Shown: piece by piece, positions 34,306-59,095 of the stretch | Layout: each line of letters begins with the position of its first letter | How positions within the stretch are numbered: position 1 is the first letter of the stretch | Source of the DNA: a virus | IMG/VR virus record: IMGVR_UViG_3300036800_000311 | Coordinates: 41,538 to 105,537 of that record | DNA: 64,000 nucleotides | Strand: one strand, 5' to 3' | Made by a program: the position numbers and the translations under genes | Notes under the pieces: model-generated | What the model was told of the DNA's origin: nothing | Seen by the model: the letters and a program-made list of their open reading frames with translations, nothing else | Databases searched by the model: none

Positions 34306-35012
34306 GCGCCCCCAAGCTGGCGATCCACGACGGACGGCAACTGGCCGACGTCCAGGTCGCCAGGTCCGCGCTCTCGGTCATCGGCGAGCGCATACCGAGG
34401 GGTCGCGTCTCGGCGACCCGCTCCGTCTTCCTGGCGCTGCTGGAGGCCGCGGGGGAGGCGACGCCCTGGACCCGGAGGGCGATCGCGGATCGCGCCGGGG
34501 TCGGGACGGGCCTGGTCAAGGACGCAGTCGAGGCCCTGGAGGTACTCGGGCTCCTGCGCGTCCTCGTCGATGGGTCCTGGCAGTTGGTGACCCCGTCCGC
34601 CGAGGCCCCGCCGCTGCCGGAGGTGGAGCTCAAGGGTGGCCCGCTGGACGGCGTCGACCCGGAGCTGCGGGCGCGGGCGGAGAAGTTCTACGTCGTCCAC
34701 GTCGGCCGGGTCGAGCAGATCCGCGGCGGCCGTCCCGCGAGGACGGACCTCGTTCTCGCGGCCGCGGTCAGGATCCTCCGGAAGGAGCCGAACCCCCACG
34801 AGATCCTCGCTCGCCTGGACTGGGCTCTGGGTCAGCGCTTCTACGCGGACAAGGTCCTCTCCCTTGGGGACTTCGAGCGCTGGTACGGACGGATCAGCGC
34901 GGCGTACCTCGCGGACAAGGCCACGGAGAAGAGGGCTCCGAGGGAGCGCGAGGTCGTCCCGTTTCGGCCTCACGGCTCTTACGAGTCCGAGCGGCTGGAG
35001 GTCCGCGCATGA
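34302..35012 (+). CDS. HTH replication-region protein (helicase loader or initiator-like)
   Basis: 236 residues from GTG 34302, coupled to the leader peptide; GTG 34269 is an alternative. Residues about 30-95 look like a winged helix (WTRRAIADRAGVGTGLVKDA, LEVLGLLRVL). The remainder is helical and basic. Its stop overlaps the DnaB start. Phage genes in this position often encode origin-binding or helicase-loading proteins; inferred from context. Confidence 0.6.
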   Translation: MSAPKLAIHDGRQLADVQVARSALSVIGERIPRGRVSATRSVFLALLEAAGEATPWTRRAIADRAGVGTGLVKDAVEALEVLGLLRVLVDGSWQLVTPSAEAPPLPEVELKGGPLDGVDPELRARAEKFYVVHVGRVEQIRGGRPARTDLVLAAAVRILRKEPNPHEILARLDWALGQRFYADKVLSLGDFERWYGRISAAYLADKATEKRAPREREVVPFRPHGSYESERLEVRA

Positions 35013-37513
35013 CGGAGACGATCGCCGTGGACGGGGACGCCGAGAGGGCCGTCCTGGGGGCGCTCATGATCATGGGCGACGCGCGGTACGTCGCGGGACT
35101 CGCGACGCGCGGCCTTCGCGCGGAGGATTTCTACTACCAGCAGCACGGGGTGGTGTTCACGGGGATGGTCTCCCTCTCCGACCGGCAGGCCGCGATCGAC
35201 ACGATCACGGTCGCGGGGGAGCTAGATCGCCTGGGTCTCCGAGGGATCGTCACCCGCGGGCAGATAGACGAGCTGACGGGCTACGTTCCGGCGGCCGGGA
35301 ACTATCGAGACTACGCCGACCGCGTGATGGATCTGGCCCGCTGGCGTGGTCGCAAGCGGGCCGCGCAGGCCATGTCCGAAGCGATCGAGCGCCGTGACTC
35401 GACGGCCTGGCTTCGGGCTCGGTCCGACCTCGACTCCGCGACGGCGGGGACGAGAACGGAGTCGCTCTCCCCGGAGCAGTGGGGCGCGACCCTGTTCGAC
35501 TTCTTCTCCGCCAGCGAGGAGGAGGCGAACGCCTACGCGATACCACTTCCCTTCGCGCGGCTGAGCGACGCCCTCGGCGGGGGCCTCTGGCCGGGGGAGG
35601 TGTTCGCCCTCTCCGGACCCACGAGCCACGGGAAGGCTCTCGCCCTTACGACCCCGATCCTCACACCCGTCGGCTGGTCAACGATGGGCGATCTGAGGGT
35701 AGGCGACGAGGTCTTTGGGGCCGACGGTCGTCCTACTCGGGTCGCTATTACCCACCCCGTCCTACTCGGATCCGACTGCTACGAGGTAAGGTTCTCAGAC
35801 GGCGCGACTCTCGTCGCCGACGCGGACCACCTCTGGCGGTACGAGGTAGGCGAGCGGGTTCACGTCGACTATCGCCGTGAGGGTGGCGTCCGCGTTAGGG
35901 ATCGGATCCAGCACCACGTCGAGGTCATCGACTCGACGGTCGCGTTGGGGGCGGCGATCGAGGCCACGTCGCGATCTCCTCGCGTTCGACTCGGCGCTCC
36001 CCTCGAACGGCCGACGGCTACGGACCTGCCGATCGACCCTTACGTCTTAGGGGTTTGGCTCGGGGATGGCGCTTCGCGTACGGGGAATGTTACGAGTCAC
36101 GTCGACGACGTGGAAGAGATCGCGTCGTATCTTCGAGCGGTCGGAGAGGCCCCGATCGTTAGTTGCTACCCAGGGCGCGCCGCGGGGATTCGCCTACCTG
36201 CCCCTCGTCCCGACCTCTGCGCACGAGGCCACGTACGACGAGGACGCTGGAATCGTTGCGACGAATGTCGCCGAGCGCGCTATCGCGGAGAGGAGGAGTC
36301 GGACGCCTGGAACGTGCCACTCGTTACGCGCCTAACTCGTATGGATCTCGCGTATCCCAACCCGAAGCGGATCCCCGAGGAATACCTATCAGCCTCCAGG
36401 GACCAGCGTCTCGCGCTCCTCCAGGGCCTGGTCGATACGGACGGTTCGGTCGACCGATACGGCGGCGTAGAGTTCTGCTCGATCTCTCGACGCTTGACCG
36501 AGCAGGTTATCGACCTCATCCTATCCCTCGGCGCGTCGCCCCGGCTATACGAGAAGTCGCTCGTCGCGGGGAAGCGCGGGACCGATCGGGCGTGGCGGGT
36601 GTTCTTCCGCATGGAGTTACCAGCGGCGCGTCTCGCTCGGAAGCGCGAGAGGTTTCGAGCGCTGAACGACCGAAAGCGCTATCGCTACGTCAAGTCGGTG
36701 ACGCTCGTCGAGTCGATTCCTGTCCGCTGTATTACAGTCAAGGCCGAGGACGGTATGTTCCTCGCTGGACGGTCGCTCGTCCCGACGCATAACTCCATCG
36801 TCGCCGACATGTGGCTCGATCACGCTGCGGATCGCGGCAAGGCGTGCCACCTGTACATGACGGAGATGACGGCGATCTCCCGCGGTCTTCGCTACCTCGC
36901 CCGGCGGACAGGCGTGCCGTTCATGCGGCAGCGTCGACGAGCGTTGACGGATCAGGACCGCTCGAAGATCCTCGCGGAACTCGGGCGGATGCCGTACGGC
37001 TGTACGGTCGCGGCGGACTGGTCCATCGACGACGTCGTCCGCGACGCGCTCCGGGCGCGCTACGACTTCGTCGTCGTTGACCTGCTCCACGGCTTCCACT
37101 ACGAGGACGAGCGTGGCCTGGACAAGTTGTCCAAGGCGATGCAGCGCCTCGCCCACGTCTCGACGACGATCGACGGACACAACGGGACCGCCGTCCTGGC
37201 GCTGACTCACCTCAAGGAGGAGGGACTCGTCAAGGGGAAGGTCCCGAAGCCGACGATCACGTCGATCAAGGGCGGGTCGTCGATCAAGCAGGACGCGGAG
37301 TTCGTCGGGTTCGTCTGGCAGGATCAGGACGACAGTGGCGCGCTGACCGGCGAGGCGGAGGTGTGGATCCCGAAGGGGCGCACGGGCCAGCTGGAGCGCC
37401 TGGAGGTCCGCCTGAACCCCTCGCGCTTCCGATTCGACTTGCGACAGGACGAGCTGGGACCCGAGGGGTCTCCAGCCGCGGAGAAATCGACCGGTACGGA
37501 CATACCGTTCTAG
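35009..37513 (+). CDS. DnaB-like replicative helicase, interrupted by an intein
   Basis: 834 codons; 448 remain after removing the 386-residue intein (210-595). N-terminal domain AERAVLGALMIMGDARYVAG; Walker A GPTSHGK (203-209) continues with S596 after the intein; Walker B VVVDLLHG; GGSSIKQDAEFVGFVWQD is motif H4-like. A hexameric helicase that unwinds DNA at the fork. Activity needs protein splicing because the intein splits the P-loop. Short spacing from the initiator-like gene suggests one operon. Confidence 0.9.
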   Translation: MTETIAVDGDAERAVLGALMIMGDARYVAGLATRGLRAEDFYYQQHGVVFTGMVSLSDRQAAIDTITVAGELDRLGLRGIVTRGQIDELTGYVPAAGNYRDYADRVMDLARWRGRKRAAQAMSEAIERRDSTAWLRARSDLDSATAGTRTESLSPEQWGATLFDFFSASEEEANAYAIPLPFARLSDALGGGLWPGEVFALSGPTSHGKALALTTPILTPVGWSTMGDLRVGDEVFGADGRPTRVAITHPVLLGSDCYEVRFSDGATLVADADHLWRYEVGERVHVDYRREGGVRVRDRIQHHVEVIDSTVALGAAIEATSRSPRVRLGAPLERPTATDLPIDPYVLGVWLGDGASRTGNVTSHVDDVEEIASYLRAVGEAPIVSCYPGRAAGIRLPAPRPDLCARGHVRRGRWNRCDECRRARYRGEEESDAWNVPLVTRLTRMDLAYPNPKRIPEEYLSASRDQRLALLQGLVDTDGSVDRYGGVEFCSISRRLTEQVIDLILSLGASPRLYEKSLVAGKRGTDRAWRVFFRMELPAARLARKRERFRALNDRKRYRYVKSVTLVESIPVRCITVKAEDGMFLAGRSLVPTHNSIVADMWLDHAADRGKACHLYMTEMTAISRGLRYLARRTGVPFMRQRRRALTDQDRSKILAELGRMPYGCTVAADWSIDDVVRDALRARYDFVVVDLLHGFHYEDERGLDKLSKAMQRLAHVSTTIDGHNGTAVLALTHLKEEGLVKGKVPKPTITSIKGGSSIKQDAEFVGFVWQDQDDSGALTGEAEVWIPKGRTGQLERLEVRLNPSRFRFDLRQDELGPEGSPAAEKSTGTDIPF
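35636..36793 (+). other. Intein in DnaB P-loop, class-3-like, with LAGLIDADG nuclease
   Basis: 386 residues, from Ala1 (ALALTTPILTPVGWSTMGDL) to VPTHN, followed by Ser+1. Ala replaces the usual Cys1, but the W (DHLWRY, block B), C (VRCITV, block F) and T (VPTHN, block G) that mark class 3 inteins are present. LGVWLGDG and LLQGLVDTDGSVD are the LAGLIDADG helices. A zinc-finger-like CARGH...RCDECRR lies between them. Codon use is less GC-biased than the host gene, consistent with transfer. Confidence 0.85.
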
Positions 37514-40544: not shown

Positions 40545-41351
40545 ATGGGTCAGGAGAAGCACGGGACGGCCATCGGGTGGACCCAGGCGCCGGGGTTCCG
40601 AGGTGAGACCTGGAACGCGACCACGGGCTGTAGCCACGTCTCCGCCGGGTGCGACATCTGCTACGCGGAGGCGCTAAGTCTCCGTCGTGGCTGGAGCGAG
40701 AAGCCCTGGACCCCGGAGAACGCCGAGGAGAACGTGGTCCTCCATCCCGAGCGCCTGACCGCGCCCTATCGCTGGCGGGAGCCGCGGGCGATCTTCACGA
40801 ACTCGATGTCAGATCTCTTCCACCCGCTGGTCCCGTATCAGTTCATCGCGGACGTCTGGCGAGCGATGCACGACAACCCTCGGCATCGGTTCATGACGCT
40901 GACGAAGCGCCCGAAGCGGATGCGGGACTGGACGCGGACCTTCGCCGCGCGGGCCGGGATCTCCGAGTCTGAGGTCTGGCCGAGTTGGATGTGGATCGGG
41001 ACCTCGGTCGAGGATCGCGACGTCGTAGGCCGCGCGGACCTCCTCCGGGAGACTTCGGCTGCGGTCAGGTTCGTCTCCGCGGAGCCGCTACTCGGCGCGA
41101 TAATCCCGGGCCTTGACCTATCGGGCATCTCTTGGCTGATCGTCGGCGGCGAGTCTGGCTCGGGTCATCGCAAGATGCACCTCCAGTGGCTGGAGGATCT
41201 CGTCGCGGAGGCCGACCGCCTCGGGGTGGCGACGTTCGTGAAGCAGGACTCCGGCCCGCGCCCCGACCAGCAGGGCCGGATCCCGGACGACCTTCTCGTC
41301 CGCGAGTGGCCAGCGCTCTCGGCGAAGGCGCCCGACGGGGCGCTGTTCTAG
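40545..41351 (+). CDS. DUF5131 (phage Gp37/Gp68) family protein
   Basis: 268 residues. TWNATTGCSHVSAGCDICYA carries the three-Cys signature (Cx6CxxC) at the N-terminus, followed by NSMSDLFHPLVP, FMTLTKRPKRM, WIGTSVED, RFVSAEPLLG, VGGESGSGHRKM and FVKQDSGP, all typical of this family. It is related to radical-SAM folds and is suspected to act on nucleic acid; no reaction is established to my knowledge. Leaderless start inferred. Confidence 0.9.
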   Translation: MGQEKHGTAIGWTQAPGFRGETWNATTGCSHVSAGCDICYAEALSLRRGWSEKPWTPENAEENVVLHPERLTAPYRWREPRAIFTNSMSDLFHPLVPYQFIADVWRAMHDNPRHRFMTLTKRPKRMRDWTRTFAARAGISESEVWPSWMWIGTSVEDRDVVGRADLLRETSAAVRFVSAEPLLGAIIPGLDLSGISWLIVGGESGSGHRKMHLQWLEDLVAEADRLGVATFVKQDSGPRPDQQGRIPDDLLVREWPALSAKAPDGALF

Positions 41352-44291: not shown

Positions 44292-44785
44292 GCGAGCGGA
44301 CCTACAGCATCGCGGTCGACTTCGACGGGGTGATCCACAGTTACACGTCGCCGTGGATCACGGCCGAGGTCATCCCAGACCCACCGGTCCCTGGAGCAAT
44401 CGACTGGCTGAACGAGATCAGCAAGCGCTTCAAGGTCATCATCTTCACGATACGCGGCAAGACCGGCGCAGGGCGGGATGCCGTCAAGGCGTGGCTCTGG
44501 GAGCACGGCTTCGAAGCCGCGGGTGCGGGCAGCGACCTGGTCGTCACTGCAGAGAAACCCCCAGCGCTGATCTATCTCGACGACCGCGCGGTGCGCTTCG
44601 ACGGGACGAACTTCCCGACGTCCGAGGAGATCCGCGATCTGGTCCCCTGGAACAAGAAGACGAAGGGCGATGCCTCCGAAGCCTGCGGCCGCCTGCTCGT
44701 CGGCCAGGGCGGCGACACGTGGGATCCGACCTGCGTGCTGCCCGCGGGGCACAGGGGCGCCTGTCGGCCCGAGACCGGCCGATGA
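44288..44785 (+). CDS. HAD-superfamily hydrolase
   Basis: 165 residues from GTG 44288. Motif I AVDFDGVIHSY (nucleophile Asp), motif II VIIFTIRG, and LIYLDDRAVRFDG (motif IV) match small phage HAD phosphatases. The extra C-terminal 35 residues have two Cys. May act on nucleotides or DNA ends. Confidence 0.8.
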   Translation: MSERTYSIAVDFDGVIHSYTSPWITAEVIPDPPVPGAIDWLNEISKRFKVIIFTIRGKTGAGRDAVKAWLWEHGFEAAGAGSDLVVTAEKPPALIYLDDRAVRFDGTNFPTSEEIRDLVPWNKKTKGDASEACGRLLVGQGGDTWDPTCVLPAGHRGACRPETGR

Positions 44786-45147
44786 GCCCATCGGGTGCCA
44801 CGCTGGATCGGGTGCTCGAGGTCCTGGGCGAGCATCGGTTCGTCTGGGCGTCGGAGCGGGACCTCCAGGCGGGGGTCGCGAGCGCGCTGGAGTTCTGGGG
44901 CCTGACCGTCGAGCGCGAGGTCCGAGTCGACGCGCGCAGCCGCCTCGACCTTCGGGTCGATCGCGTCGGGATCGAGGTCAAGGTCAAGGGGTCCTGGCGG
45001 GACGTCCTCCGCCAACTCGAGCGCTACGCCCTCCTGGACTCCGTCGACGCCCTCGTGCTCGTGACCGCCTGCCCGTCTCACGCCCGGATCGTCGGTCGCC
45101 CGGTCGGCAAGCCGCTCCACCTCCATCGCGTCGGCTCCGGACTGTGA
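44782..45147 (+). CDS. PD-(D/E)XK nuclease-like protein
   Basis: 121 residues (ATGA overlap). VEREVRVDARSRLDLRVDRV followed by GIEVKVKGS gives the D...ExK core, and LRQLERYA is the usual downstream helix. It directly precedes the SNF2 helicase with a 4-base overlap, so the pair may act together on DNA. Confidence 0.75.
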   Translation: MSPSGATLDRVLEVLGEHRFVWASERDLQAGVASALEFWGLTVEREVRVDARSRLDLRVDRVGIEVKVKGSWRDVLRQLERYALLDSVDALVLVTACPSHARIVGRPVGKPLHLHRVGSGL

Positions 45148-47912
45148 GGACGTACGGGACCCTGCGCTTCGGCGAGGACAAGGGTCGCACCTTTGGCGGC
45201 TCGTTCTGGATCATCTCCGCGGAGCCGCACGTCACGATGCGCCTGAAGCGGATCTTCGGACGGGTGGACCCGAGGCGGGACGGAACCCTCGTGATCAGCG
45301 ACACGCCGGAGACCGCCGCGGACCTGGAGTGGGTGCTGGGGCGCTGGCCGCTCGTCCTGGACGAGGCGTCCCGCTCCCGCCTGGAGGTCGCCGCCCGCGG
45401 CTACCGAGAGTCGCAGGAGGCCGTCGACAAGATCTTCGGCGGGGATCGCCTTCCCTTCCGGATGACCCCGGCCCGCGAGCCCCGCGACTACCAACTGGTC
45501 GCCGCGGACGTGACGCTGACCACGGGGCGCCTGCTCCTCACGGACGACATCGGACTCGGGAAGACGTTCACGGGCCTGCTGGTCCTCCGTGACCCCGAGG
45601 CCCGTCCGGCCCTCGTCGTGTGCCCGACCCACCTGACCCGTCAGTGGCTCGCGGAGCTGCACATCAGCTTCCCGACGCTGAGGGGCCACATCGCCCAGCG
45701 GGCCACGCCGTACAACCCGTCCCTCCGGAGGGACATGGGCGGGCACTACCCCGACGTGCTGATCATGTCCTACTCGAAGCTCGCGGGCTGGTCCCAGCAC
45801 CTCGTCGGCTGGGTCCGGACGGTCATCTTCGACGAGATCCAGGACCTCCGCGTGGCGGGATCCCAGAAGTACACCGCGGCGGCGATGATCGCGGACGCGG
45901 CGCGCGTCAAGCTCGGGATGACCGCGAGTCCCGTCTACAACTACGGCGGCGAGATCTACAACGTGATGCGGATCCTCGACGTGGACGCGCTCGGCACCCG
46001 AGCGGAGTTCGTCCAGGAGTGGGGGGCGGAGAGCGGTAAGAAGGTCGCGGTGAGGGACCCGCGCGCCCTGGGATCGTTTCTCCGGGAGGAGAACCTCATG
46101 CTGCGGCGCACCCGCGCGGACGTCGGCCGCGAGCTCGGGGACCTCGTCCGCGTCCCCCACGACGTCGACGCGGACCCGGACGTGATCGAGCGGGAGACGG
46201 CCGACGCGACGAGCCTCGCGACGCTGATCCTGAGCGGCGACGGCAACCGTCAGGAGCGGTTCCAGGCGGCGGGCGACCTCGACTGGCAGATGCGCCGGGC
46301 GACCGGACTGGCGAAGGCGCCGTACGTGGCGGCGTTCGTCCAGCTGCTGCTGGAGTCCGAGGCGAAGGTGGTCCTGTTCGGATGGCATCGGGACGTGTAC
46401 GCCGCCTGGCAGGAGCGCTTCCGCAGGGCCGAGATCGGGTTCGTGATGTACACCGGGAGCGAGTCGCCCGCCGCGAAGCAGCGCGCGAAGGACGCCTTCC
46501 TCGACGACGACGACTGCCGCGTCTTCGTGATGTCCCTGCGGTCGGGGGCGGGCCTCGACGGCCTTCAGCAGGCGTGCAGCGTCGCGGTCTTCGGGGAGCT
46601 CGACTGGTCCCCGGCGATGCACGATCAGTGCCTCTCGGCCGACACGGAGATTTTGACGCCTGGCGGATGGGCTCAGATGGGCGAAGTCGCTACGGGCGAC
46701 GAGGTAGCCGCGTTCGATCGCGAGACGGAGGAGATCTCGTGGCGGCCAGCGCGGCGCGTTATCGAGCGTGGCCTTGCAGGCGGTGAGGAGATCTATGAGA
46801 TGAAGTTGCCGGGCGTAGATCTACGCGTAACCGGCGATCATCGCATCGTCTATCAGCAGTCGTGCGGCGCGGGTCACCGCAAGATGAGTGGATGGAAGGT
46901 AGATACGGCTGCCAAACTAGCCAGTGGTCGTAGTTGGTATCGCATCCCAGTTGCTGGCTACGAAGAGGGCGTAGGCATACCGCTGACCGACTCCGAATTG
47001 TCGTTTCTCGGATGGTGGATCACGGACGGCACCCTGTCGAACCAGCGGACGCGCGCGACGCCCGGACTCGTCATCTGCCAGGCTCAAGCGTCGCCGCATA
47101 ACGGGCATATTCGTCAGACCCTTGACGGTTGCGGGTTCGCCTGGACGGTCGCCGTCCGTGACGTCGGGTCCCAATTTGATCGTCGGTCGCCGATGCTTCA
47201 CTATTCCGTACCTAAGAAGAGGTCGACAACACGCCTCGGGCGCGGATGGGAGGAGTTAGCGCCATACCTCGACAAGGATCTATCGCCCCTGCTCGACGAT
47301 ATGACTTCCAACCAGCTCGCAGTGTTTATGGAGGCGGTCCATTATGGGGACGGGGACAAGCAGGGTAAGGTGGTCCCAGGGAAGGGTGTTCAGCGGAGTT
47401 ACCACGTCGGTACCGCCAGGCGCCTATTCGCCGATCGCCTCCAGTCGCTCCTCATTCGTCGCGGGTGGAGAGCAAACGTCATCGAGAAGAAGACCCCCCT
47501 GGGCCGACCATACTTCAAGATCAATACGAAGCCTGGGGCGATCCGCTCGATAAAGGGTAGCCAGCAGTTCTTACGCGTAGACCCCAGGGAGGGCGAGCGC
47601 GTCTGGTGCGTTGAGAACGACCTCGGTACCCTGGTCGTCCGTCGGCACGGTAAGGCGGCGATCGTCGGAAACTGCCTCGGCCGCCTTCATCGCGACGGCC
47701 AGGACGACCCGGTCGTCGGGTACTTCTTGACGTGCGACTACGGATCGGATCCGACGGTGATGGAGGTGCTCGGCGTCAAGCGCGGGCAGGCGGAGCCGAT
47801 GATGGATCCGACGGTCGAGTTGTTCGAGCGGATGGAACCCCGAGGCGATCGCGTGAGGATGCTCGCACGGTCCGTCCTGGACCGCGGAGTAGGGGCGAGG
47901 GTCCGAGCGTGA
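45144..47912 (+). CDS. SNF2-family helicase, interrupted by an intein
   Basis: 922 codons from GTG 45144; 574 after removal of the 348-residue intein (496-843). LLLTDDIGLGKTFTGLLVLR is Walker A; VVCPTHLTRQWLAEL motif Ia; FDEIQDLRVAG motif II; LGMTASPVYN motif III; FVMSLRSGAGLDGLQQAC motif V. Motif VI (QCLGRLHRDGQ) is rebuilt only after splicing. Probably a DNA translocase in replication or repair. Confidence 0.9.
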   Translation: MRTYGTLRFGEDKGRTFGGSFWIISAEPHVTMRLKRIFGRVDPRRDGTLVISDTPETAADLEWVLGRWPLVLDEASRSRLEVAARGYRESQEAVDKIFGGDRLPFRMTPAREPRDYQLVAADVTLTTGRLLLTDDIGLGKTFTGLLVLRDPEARPALVVCPTHLTRQWLAELHISFPTLRGHIAQRATPYNPSLRRDMGGHYPDVLIMSYSKLAGWSQHLVGWVRTVIFDEIQDLRVAGSQKYTAAAMIADAARVKLGMTASPVYNYGGEIYNVMRILDVDALGTRAEFVQEWGAESGKKVAVRDPRALGSFLREENLMLRRTRADVGRELGDLVRVPHDVDADPDVIERETADATSLATLILSGDGNRQERFQAAGDLDWQMRRATGLAKAPYVAAFVQLLLESEAKVVLFGWHRDVYAAWQERFRRAEIGFVMYTGSESPAAKQRAKDAFLDDDDCRVFVMSLRSGAGLDGLQQACSVAVFGELDWSPAMHDQCLSADTEILTPGGWAQMGEVATGDEVAAFDRETEEISWRPARRVIERGLAGGEEIYEMKLPGVDLRVTGDHRIVYQQSCGAGHRKMSGWKVDTAAKLASGRSWYRIPVAGYEEGVGIPLTDSELSFLGWWITDGTLSNQRTRATPGLVICQAQASPHNGHIRQTLDGCGFAWTVAVRDVGSQFDRRSPMLHYSVPKKRSTTRLGRGWEELAPYLDKDLSPLLDDMTSNQLAVFMEAVHYGDGDKQGKVVPGKGVQRSYHVGTARRLFADRLQSLLIRRGWRANVIEKKTPLGRPYFKINTKPGAIRSIKGSQQFLRVDPREGERVWCVENDLGTLVVRRHGKAAIVGNCLGRLHRDGQDDPVVGYFLTCDYGSDPTVMEVLGVKRGQAEPMMDPTVELFERMEPRGDRVRMLARSVLDRGVGARVRA
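46629..47672 (+). other. Intein in SNF2 motif VI, lacking penultimate His
   Basis: 348 residues, Cys1 (CLSADTEILTPGGWAQMGEV) to IVGN, followed by Cys+1. Block B is VTGDHRIVY. The LAGLIDADG helices are LSFLGWWITDGTL and AVFMEAVHYGDGD. The usual HN ending is replaced by GN, which in some inteins slows or alters C-terminal cleavage. Codon choice is visibly less GC-rich than the flanking helicase, suggesting recent entry. Confidence 0.85.
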
Positions 47913-56626: not shown

Positions 56627-57142
56627 ATGCCAAAAACCCCCACCCGCATGAAGAAGGAACCCGGGGAGACGCTCTGGCCCGCGAGGTTCCTCGACGGACT
56701 CGCGATGGGCTACAGCGTCACCCGCGCGGCCCGCGAGGCTGGGGTCACTCGCCAGGCGCCGTACGAGTTGAAGTGGCGCGACGAGGAGTTCGAGGCCGCC
56801 TGGGTCAACGCCGAGGCGGCGGCGGTCGACGTTATCCGCGACGAGATCTATCGCCGAGGGGTGGAGGGCGTGGAGGAGCCGGTCTTCCACCTCGGCAAGC
56901 AGGTCGCCTCGATCCGGAAGTACGACTCGACGCTCCTGATCTTCGAGGCCAAGCGCCGCGATCCGGCCTACCGCGATCGCCTCCAGGTCGGTGGATCCGT
57001 GGAGGTGGCGGGGACGATCGACCACCACGTCGCGCTCCTCGACGGACGCCAGCCCGTGGAGGTCGAGGGGTCCGCGCGCCGCGCCGCGGCCCGCGCCCTC
57101 CTGGAGGCGGGGTCGGAGAACGGCGACGGCTCGGCGGACTAG
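56627..57142 (+). CDS. terS: Terminase small subunit
   Basis: 171 residues. SVTRAAREAGVTRQAPYELK is the DNA-binding HTH; DEEFEAAWVNAEAAAVDVIR and LLIFEAKRRDPAYRDRL are typical of this family. Recognises the packaging site and passes DNA to the large subunit encoded at 57566. Confidence 0.85.
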   Translation: MPKTPTRMKKEPGETLWPARFLDGLAMGYSVTRAAREAGVTRQAPYELKWRDEEFEAAWVNAEAAAVDVIRDEIYRRGVEGVEEPVFHLGKQVASIRKYDSTLLIFEAKRRDPAYRDRLQVGGSVEVAGTIDHHVALLDGRQPVEVEGSARRAAARALLEAGSENGDGSAD

Positions 57143-57188: not shown

Positions 57189-57569
57189 GTGCCCCGCGGA
57201 GAGCCGAGACGACTCGTGAGCGTGAAGATGCTGTCGGGGCTGGTCGACGCCGCGGACGCGCGAGCGGCGGAGATGGGCCTGACGCGCTCGGCGTGGATCG
57301 AGCGAGCCGTTGGGCAGGCGCTGGGCGACGACACGGCTCCGTCGGTCGTCGCCACCTCGCCGCTCCCCGGGAGGACGCGGGTTCGATCCCCGCCCTCCGG
57401 GCTAGTCCCGGGAGGTCGCCCAGCGGGTAGGGCACCCGGGGACGGCGAGGCGCCTGCCGAGCGGCCCGGCTCGGAGGAGGCTGCCTTCGGATGCCCGTCT
57501 CCTCGCTGTCCGTTCCGGGCGCTCAGCCCGAGGGCGACGTGCCCCTGGCACGGGTACCGCGTCCGATGA
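57189..57569 (+). CDS. Ribbon-helix-helix protein with Cys-rich tail, overlapping a tRNA-like element
   Basis: 126 residues from GTG 57189. Residues about 7-48 (RLVSVKMLSGLVDAADARAA, TRSAWIERAVGQAL) form an RHH (CopG-like) domain. Residues about 50-100 are Pro/Gly/Arg-rich and encoded by the bases of the tRNA-like structure. The end has CPSPRCPFRA and CPWHG. A TACCTT box 7 bases before the GTG suggests a leaderless start. ATGA overlap with the large terminase. Confidence 0.6.
   Translation: MPRGEPRRLVSVKMLSGLVDAADARAAEMGLTRSAWIERAVGQALGDDTAPSVVATSPLPGRTRVRSPPSGLVPGGRPAGRAPGDGEAPAERPGSEEAAFGCPSPRCPFRALSPRATCPWHGYRVR
57355..57450 (+). ncRNA. Circularly permuted tRNA-like structure
   Basis: Order along the RNA: outer helix strand CCTCGCCG (57355-57362), anticodon-stem 3' strand CCGGG (57367-57371), variable loop AGGAC, T arm GCGGG-TTCGATC-CCCGC (57377-57393), acceptor 3' strand CCTCCGG, G73-like G57401, 7-base linker, acceptor 5' strand CGGGAGG (57409-57415), T8, D arm GCCC-AGCGGGTA-GGGC (57418-57433), A26, anticodon-stem 5' strand CCCGG (57435-57439), outer helix CGGCGAGG (57443-57450). 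U8, A14, G15-C48, GG18-19, A21, G53-C61, TTC and A58 positions all fit. The anticodon loop is replaced by pairing GGGGA with TCCCC, leaving one bulged C57363. U33 is absent; the acceptor has one G bulge. Confidence 0.5.
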
Positions 57570-59095
57570 CCGCCCTCGCCCCAGCGTCTCCGCGCGGCCT
57601 GTCCCGCGACGCCGTCGACGCGGCGCTGCTAGACCCGACGATCTTCATCGACCAGCACTGCTGGATCCGCGGGAAGGGTGGCCGGAAGGAGCGCTTCCGG
57701 CTCTGGGACTTCCAGCGGGAGACCGTCGAGGCGATGGACGACGAGGACCGGCTCCTCGTCCTCAAGGCCAGGCAGCTCGGGATCTCCTGGTGCTCGGATG
57801 GCTTCGCGCTCTGGCTCTGTACCGCGAATCGCGGGCAGACGGTCCTGATCCTCTCCCGACGGATGGACGAGGCGCTCGAGGAGATGCGCCGGATCCGCTT
57901 CATGCACTCGAACCTCCCGCCGGAGCTGAGGCGCAGGACCGCGTCCGAGGTCCCGGGATCGTCGGCGCCGGACACGATGAAGCACCTCGAGTTCCCAGAC
58001 ACGGACTCCCGGATCATCTCCCTGCCGACGACGGAGAACGCGGGGACGTCGTACACGGCGACGCTCGTGATCGTCCAGGAGCTCGCGAAGATCAAGAACG
58101 CGACGGAGCTGATGGAGGGCCTGACCCCGACCGTCGGCGACGACGGCCGCCTCTTCCTGATCAGCACGGCCAAGGGATTCGGCGGCGTCTTCGCGGCTCG
58201 CTGGCGCGCGGCGCAGCATCGCTGGCACACCGGCCAGGTCGTCGGTGATCGCGGCGAGCCGGGGGACTTCCGCCCGATCTTCATCCCGTGGCACGCCCGC
58301 CCGGGCCGCACGGCCGCCTGGTACGAGGGGATGCGACGGACGCTCGCCTCCGAGGGCAAGTCGGACCGATCCGTTCGGCAGGAGTACCCGGCGACGCCCC
58401 GCGAGGCGTTCCAGGGAAGCGCAGACGCGGTCTTCGCGGAGGAGTTCGACCGGAACGGTCCGTGCGTCCTCGACGGGACGAGGCCGAGGGGCGGGACCTT
58501 CCCCGTCGTCGTCGGCTACGACCCGGGCGTCAACCACGGCTTCGCGTACCTGATCGAGGTCCAGGGCCGCAGCGTCTTCGTCTTCGACGAGATCTACATC
58601 CAGAACGGCACGGTCTCGGAGATGGGTGAGGAGCTGCTCGCTCGCCTCCGGGTCGAGCACGACCTCGACCCGGCGGAGTGCATGGTCTATGTCGACCCGT
58701 ACGCCGCGGGGCGGAACGGGCAGACGAAGAAGAACGACTGGGAGGTCCTCGCGGAGATGGGCCTCCTCGTCGACTCGGAGAACGATCGGTACGAGCCCGC
58801 CCAGCGCGTCGAGCTGATCAAGGTGGTGCTCAAGGCGGAGCGGGTCTGGGTCTCCCTCGACTGCCCCCGTCTCATCGACGCCCTGGAGCAGGCGCCGTGG
58901 AAGACGATGCGCTCCCAGGCGGGGGAGACGTATCAGGGCGACACGTACGACAAGGACGGGAAGCACGAGCACCCGCTGGACGCCTTCGGCACCGCGCTCG
59001 CGCGGATCTTCCCGCCGATCGCCGTCGCCGCCGCGGACGTGGAGGCCGCCGCGGCCGTCGGCTCGTACGCCTACTCCGCCTCCGAGTACGGCTAG
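57566..59095 (+). CDS. terL: Terminase large subunit
   Basis: 509 residues from ATG 57566 (ATGA overlap). LLVLKARQLGISWCSDGFAL is the Walker A-like motor motif; VIVQELAKIKNATEL lies at the Walker B position. The RNase H-like nuclease has VVGYDPGVNHGFAYL, MVYVDPYAAGRNGQ and HPLDAFGTAL, each with its acidic metal ligand. Motor and nuclease for DNA packaging into proheads. Confidence 0.95.
   Translation: MTALAPASPRGLSRDAVDAALLDPTIFIDQHCWIRGKGGRKERFRLWDFQRETVEAMDDEDRLLVLKARQLGISWCSDGFALWLCTANRGQTVLILSRRMDEALEEMRRIRFMHSNLPPELRRRTASEVPGSSAPDTMKHLEFPDTDSRIISLPTTENAGTSYTATLVIVQELAKIKNATELMEGLTPTVGDDGRLFLISTAKGFGGVFAARWRAAQHRWHTGQVVGDRGEPGDFRPIFIPWHARPGRTAAWYEGMRRTLASEGKSDRSVRQEYPATPREAFQGSADAVFAEEFDRNGPCVLDGTRPRGGTFPVVVGYDPGVNHGFAYLIEVQGRSVFVFDEIYIQNGTVSEMGEELLARLRVEHDLDPAECMVYVDPYAAGRNGQTKKNDWEVLAEMGLLVDSENDRYEPAQRVELIKVVLKAERVWVSLDCPRLIDALEQAPWKTMRSQAGETYQGDTYDKDGKHEHPLDAFGTALARIFPPIAVAAADVEAAAAVGSYAYSASEYG

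Follow-up and report, generated by a model that had tools for sequence, protein, structure and literature searches.

The window analysed here is a 64,000-nucleotide stretch of a viral record of 105.5 kb, and the feature of interest is a tRNA-like RNA at 57355-57450, lying between the terminase small and large subunit genes and inside an open reading frame of the RHH (CopG) type. The genes and the parts of the RNA, all on the plus strand, are as follows.

56627-57142, plus strand: terminase small subunit gene, terS (phrog_4044, E 4e-26)
57219-57569, plus strand: RHH (CopG-type) open reading frame overlapped by the RNA (RHH_1, E 0.017, below the cut-off)
57355-57371, plus strand: closing helix, 5' strand (where the anticodon stem would be, and its continuation); all 16 pairs form with 57435-57450, leaving C57363 bulged
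57372-57376, plus strand: variable loop AGGAC (tRNA positions 44-48), aligning with the variable loop, of GGUC type, in phage YrlA RNAs
57377-57393, plus strand: T arm GCGGG-TTCGATC-CCCGC (direct reading, folding, covariance-model alignment)
57394-57401, plus strand: acceptor-like stem, 3' strand CCTCCGGG (direct reading, folding)
57402-57406, plus strand: loop CTAGT, the linker that caps the acceptor-like stem (folding; CTAG at the same place in the Kingsolomon YrlA)
57407-57415, plus strand: acceptor-like stem, 5' strand CCC-G-GGAGG, G57410 bulged (direct reading, folding)
57416-57417, plus strand: U8 and C9, joining the acceptor-like stem to the D arm (direct reading, covariance-model alignment)
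57418-57433, plus strand: D arm GCCC-AGCGGGTA-GGGC (direct reading, folding, covariance-model alignment)
57434, plus strand: A26, between the D arm and the 3' strand of the closing helix
57435-57450, plus strand: closing helix, 3' strand, pairing with 57355-57371
57491-59095, plus strand: terminase large subunit gene, terL (phrog_2, E 2e-30)

Direct reading and folding without constraints agree on this architecture. Every arm that an earlier sequence-only reading had named is present, in the order 3' half then 5' half, and of the invariant bases it had listed, T54 T55 C56 A58, G53-C61, U8, A14, G18 G19 and A21 were found. The acceptor strands pair over the short CTAGT linker as an 8-bp stem from which G57410 is bulged, and the anticodon loop is replaced by a 16-bp helix, 8 + 8 bp around the single bulge C57363, so that the RNA is a closed cloverleaf, as had been proposed. 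This closed cloverleaf is the minimum-free-energy fold of the unconstrained RNA. A helix of at least 16 bp with at most one bulge and this spacing occurs at 2 of ~127,000 positions in the window, this RNA being one of the two, and the tRNA-like arms are present in addition to it. The folding energy was the 6th lowest among ~4,260 sampled segments and gave a z of -1.5 against shuffles; since the DNA is ~79% G+C, the energy alone is unremarkable. U8, which formed no part of our search pattern, is invariant in the alignment of phage YrlA-type RNAs (alignment A1, see below). ARAGORN called no tRNA in the RNA region. The arms at 57355-57450 are real and not a product of chance.

The RHH frame stays open through the RNA. 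Its third-position G+C bias, however, is confined to approximately 57219-57350 and is flat over 57340-57460, the RNA region, and in the one relative that has the RHH gene the alignment covers the RHH domain and is not convincing over the linker. The sequence-only reading had held that conservation of this linker at protein level, with no compensatory base pairs, would speak against the RNA; the linker is not conserved in that relative, the codon-position signal is gone over the RNA, and compensatory pairs occur in related loci. The RHH frame encodes a CX4C...CX2H motif at its C-terminus, and its stop codon overlaps a candidate start of terL (ATGA at 57566). Since terL homology begins near residue 22-37, the gene may begin later than 57491, with the ATG at 57566 as a possible true start. 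Three further genes in the window deserve mention: an SNF2-type helicase that weakly matches a Hint domain (44670-47909), a possible intein; a DnaB-type helicase split by a LAGLIDADG domain (35009-37510), probably an intein; and a strong DUF5131 protein (40545-41348, E 4e-68), here in a phage. At L127:12605-13720, among head genes, the same residues match both RNA-ligase and head-maturation-protease PHROGs, probably through a shared accessory domain.

An Rfam scan at gathering thresholds assigned the RNA to no family. In a permissive scan the sole credible family was YrlA (RF02553), a bacterial Y RNA, which aligned in the full permuted order to 57369-57437 (positions 23-85) with 24.3 bits and E 0.0027, below the RF02553 gathering score of 69. 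The features that define YrlA are nevertheless there, namely a T arm, an acceptor-like hairpin and a D arm in that order, and a basal stem formed by the paired 5' and 3' ends (16 bp, one bulged C). BLASTN against named phages ranked four mycobacteriophages first, Kingsolomon among them, over a 65-nt segment at 75% identity and in the same order, with an E of 0.1 that is weak taken alone; BLASTN against plasmids gave short matches only. We therefore scored the RNA, held out from training, with a covariance model (R1) built from 24 other phage YrlA-type RNA cores, which recovered it end to end with 59.6 bits and E 9e-18. A covariance search of this kind had been named beforehand as one check. 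The R1 score alone is not proof, since adjacent ordinary tRNA genes reach ~65 bits with the same model. Here a tandem-tRNA artefact is excluded because flanking anticodon arms are absent and because the acceptor and closing strands pair.

To place the RNA among its kin, viral contigs were scanned with a pattern, ordinary adjacent tRNA genes were removed and modules that ARAGORN does not call were retained. This yielded at least 27 permuted modules besides the window RNA, including that of phage Kingsolomon. Ordinary tRNA genes lying side by side made up most of the 120 listed pattern matches in viral contigs, and L165 was rejected as a tandem-tRNA artefact. Among the matches listed, Pfam detects a TROVE/Ro60 gene in 13 of 27 records, and phage-derived profiles reveal others. 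The Kingsolomon RNA lies just 3' of gene 54, annotated as a 'Ro-like RNA binding protein', and the Gordonia phages Trax (gp94) and Cashline (gp37) carry YrlA-type RNAs beside genes of the same annotation. The sequence-only reading had known of no accepted phage example, a statement that does not hold for the architecture: phages with YrlA-type RNAs next to Ro60-like genes are not hard to find, and a YrlA match in a mycobacterial prophage was already published (PMC8190616), as were Ro60 homologues in phages (PMC7824862, PMC12363180). The permuted arm order itself is thus not new. The 27 listed phage modules scored 23 to 49 bits against RF02553 (best 48.8) and none reached 69, so a low Rfam score such as that of the window RNA is usual among phage members; RNAs of this type are common in phages and escape automatic annotation. 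In the alignment of the 24 cores (window excluded) 87.5% of cells were paired, and covariation was 0.594, compared with 0.159 for shuffled and at most 0.176 for slid alignments. Double-sided changes were found in the T, acceptor and closing stems, and the compensatory changes that the sequence-only reading had asked after are thus seen both in the phage set and in the related loci described below. Three large records, L054 (279 kb), L071 (277 kb) and L116 (113 kb), carry YrlA-type RNAs and no detectable Ro60 gene, and orphan Y RNAs may be common. At L039:5711-5783, L064:2583-2655 and L053:3440-3512 and upstream of these, an anticodon-arm-like hairpin stands just before the variable loop (an example loop being CTGTTAA, Asn GUU), making such phage YrlA RNAs nearly whole permuted tRNAs.

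Most other phage YrlA RNAs differ from the window RNA in how the module is closed. In those, the module is joined via an internal loop to a second stem, presumably the Ro60 arm, which often bears one of the recurrent motifs ACAGCAA or GGTTACTTC. In the window RNA the anticodon-position stem continues as one helix of ~16 bp with no internal loop, and neither motif is present. In vertebrates the Ro60 site consists of a bulged C and a 3-nt bulge on the opposite strand, and losing either abolishes binding (PMC4726728); by this vertebrate definition the basal stem of the window RNA holds the bulged C alone, having no internal loop and no opposite 3-nt bulge. Nor was a gene found for Ro60, the usual partner of such RNAs. 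A Pfam TROVE search of the 105.5-kb record gave no Ro60 gene, and since the same search missed the annotated Ro protein of Kingsolomon, it was redone with phage-derived profiles. Neither an iterated phage-Ro60 profile with filters off nor an alignment search that detects Ro60 in other phage records found a Ro60 gene in the 105.5-kb record. The alignment of phage Ro60 proteins (A2) finds the Kingsolomon Ro with E 9e-86, a weak positive control because that protein belongs to A2. The terminase and portal genes stand at one end of the contig, and the opposite end carries those for head, protease and tape measure; this order suggests a circularly permuted, near-complete genome, and the record is probably near-complete. 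Its classification is linear, with no end repeats, and a piece may be missing. As far as could be seen, a closed form without Ro60 is undescribed, no report of one having been found in a literature that was mainly non-subscription.

Searches with the portal protein returned eleven related loci, while terL, terS and RHH as queries gave none or one distant relative. Two of the portal relatives carry the RNA just 3' of terL: L154 (portal 46% identical), at 58.6 bits, and L153 (portal 42% identical), at 47.7 bits. Both are of the closed form, with the outer helix paired at 16 of 17 positions in L154 and 15 of 17 in L153, and the closed subtype is thus common to the window RNA and these two. Comparison of the L153 and L154 outer helices shows four compensatory pairs, with both bases changed, and two with a change at one base; for these two sequences alone the shuffle control was weak (31/500), and in slid versions no pair changed on both sides. 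The L153 and L154 records, which are partial genomes, yielded no Ro60 gene. The other portal relatives, including the closest, have no such RNA near terL or portal, and the RNA therefore comes and goes. The genome contigs gave no portal relative and no match to the L153/L154-type pattern. Since the RNA lies 5' of terL in the window and 3' of it in L153 and L154, the closed forms could be convergent. At L154:1908-2004 and L153:3625-3721, directly upstream of the closed RNA, there is a tRNA-like gene that ARAGORN misses, with a 7-bp acceptor, anticodon TTC (Glu) and a 32-nt D loop containing a UUCG hairpin. A further closed-type permuted module, with a 2-nt bulge, was seen at L067:3858-3935, beside a tRNA and ~0.8 kb from a Ro60-like gene.

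We conclude, at a probability of about 0.7, that the RNA is a YrlA-type (bacterial Y-RNA-like) tRNA mimic in a closed form. Of the three options in the sequence-only reading, the tRNA mimic is the one borne out, by the YrlA arm order and the elbow nucleotides. Against this identity stand the 24.3 bits, although the 27 other listed phage records also fall below 69, and the fact that neither a Ro60 gene nor a recognisable Ro60-binding stem was found, which leaves the RNA without one of the two halves of a canonical Y RNA. That no promoter of its own or terminator-like site was seen, and that the closest portal relatives have no such RNA near terL, also count against it. A rival reading is a canonical Y RNA served by a host Ro60, or by a Ro60 on a missing contig piece, the closing helix then being a divergent Ro60-binding stem. 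Ro60 occurs in ~5% of sequenced bacterial genomes (PMC4726728), the single bulged C is shared with the vertebrate site, the linear record without end repeats could lack a piece, and the similar closed helix in L067, a record that carries Ro60, keeps a Ro60-binding reading alive. We nevertheless regard it as unlikely, since the vertebrate site requires the opposite 3-nt bulge in what is here an otherwise perfect helix, both recurrent motifs are absent, and the genome seems near-complete with no Ro60 found. On a par with it we place a cis-acting structure of the late mRNA around terL, which would insulate, stabilise or guide processing of the transcript and would not be a free RNA. The position inside the terS-RHH-terL transcript 5' of terL, and directly 3' of terL in L153 and L154, fits such an element, as does the fact that no promoter of its own and no terminator-like site was seen at the RNA locus. 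A plain insulator, however, needs neither tRNA elbow nucleotides nor the YrlA arm order, and YrlA itself provides the precedent for a free RNA.

The remaining explanations are far less probable. A packaging RNA, or a DNA-level pac or cruciform element used by the terminase, had been suggested by the terS/terL neighbourhood and would suit the long inverted repeat, but it accounts poorly for the tRNA-specific nucleotides, and the RNA is 5' of terL here, 3' of it in two relatives and absent from the terS-terL region of most portal relatives; we consider this very improbable. A coincidence in G+C-rich coding DNA of the RHH linker, with no RNA function, would suit the energy z of only -1.5 and the frame open across the region, yet the held-out model E of 9e-18, the rarity of the helix, the loss of codon-position bias over the RNA and the homologues with compensatory changes leave chance a very small share. 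A true circularly permuted tRNA, spliced and charged, would match the arm order and the invariant positions. If it were one, then an anticodon loop, CCA and, at the junction, a BHB motif, defined as a 4-bp helix flanked by two 3-nt bulges (PMC3978253), should be present, whereas all of these are missing, the acceptor stem is bulged, the one single-nucleotide bulge is all that stands in place of the BHB motif, and ARAGORN was negative. We give this option almost no credence, and the earlier argument that the missing U33 speaks against a normal translating tRNA stands, there being neither anticodon loop nor U33.

For the YrlA-type mimic we infer a free RNA whose elbow is recognised by host proteins. 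The module would fold into a tRNA elbow that might be accepted by host tRNA-elbow-binding proteins, such as the tRNA-modifying enzymes TruB and Dus, or PNPase as in RYPER. The long helix would stand in for the Ro60-binding arm and protect the RNA ends, and the RNA could for that reason work without a phage Ro60, either by acting on PNPase or tRNA enzymes in the manner of an adaptor or decoy or by using a host Ro60. YrlA offers the analogy: it has a tRNA-like domain, serves DusA and TruB as a substrate and tethers PNPase to Rsr (PMC8394870). In the case of Salmonella YrlA, competition with an anticodon nuclease has been suggested as a role, and the purpose of the mimicry left open (PMC7790460). 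The tRNA-elbow adaptor or decoy step alone is our leading candidate for the mechanism, held tentatively and at somewhat under even odds. A more ambitious proposal, which we regard as possible yet doubtful, is a distinct class of closed permuted cloverleaves without Ro60, derived from Y RNAs, in which a plain helix replaced the Ro60 arm and whose only targets would be the tRNA-binding machinery of the host: such RNAs might modulate PNPase, for instance, or serve as decoys for tRNA-modifying enzymes or for defence nucleases that attack tRNA. In the closed form without Ro60 the two halves of Y-RNA biology come apart. Should this form prove to be expressed and active, the tRNA-like module would have a function that does not depend on Ro60, and the purpose of tRNA mimicry would become testable, be it to recruit PNPase or to act as a decoy for tRNA enzymes or anticodon nucleases.

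Among known systems, the permuted tRNA genes of algae and Thermofilum (PMC3978253) likewise place the 3' half first with a short loop between the acceptor strands, whereas the window RNA has no anticodon, BHB junction or CCA and is not a tRNA gene. The Y RNA of D. radiodurans acts within RYPER (Rsr-Y RNA-PNPase), where its effector module recruits PNPase (PMC8394870, PMC4726728). A similar action is suggested here by analogy, PNPase binding being putative and the Ro60/Rsr half, in contrast to RYPER, not evident in the window system. Compared with YrlA (RF02553; Salmonella YrlA structure PDB 6CU1, cited in PMC8394870), whose known partner is Ro60/Rsr, the window RNA lacks a detectable Ro60 gene, scores 24.3 bits against a threshold of 69 and has an uninterrupted closing helix with one bulged C where the Ro60 stem of YrlA is set off by an internal loop. 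It shares with YrlA the permuted T arm, acceptor-like hairpin and D arm, the elbow nucleotides, a stem at the anticodon-stem position and a similar size range (90-150 nt for YrlA). The Kingsolomon gp54, Trax gp94 and Cashline gp37 loci, also of Caudoviricetes, bear the same tRNA-like module; theirs adjoin a gene annotated as 'Ro-like RNA binding protein', while the window RNA lies in a terminase region without one, and the Kingsolomon and window RNAs both carry the CTAG cap.
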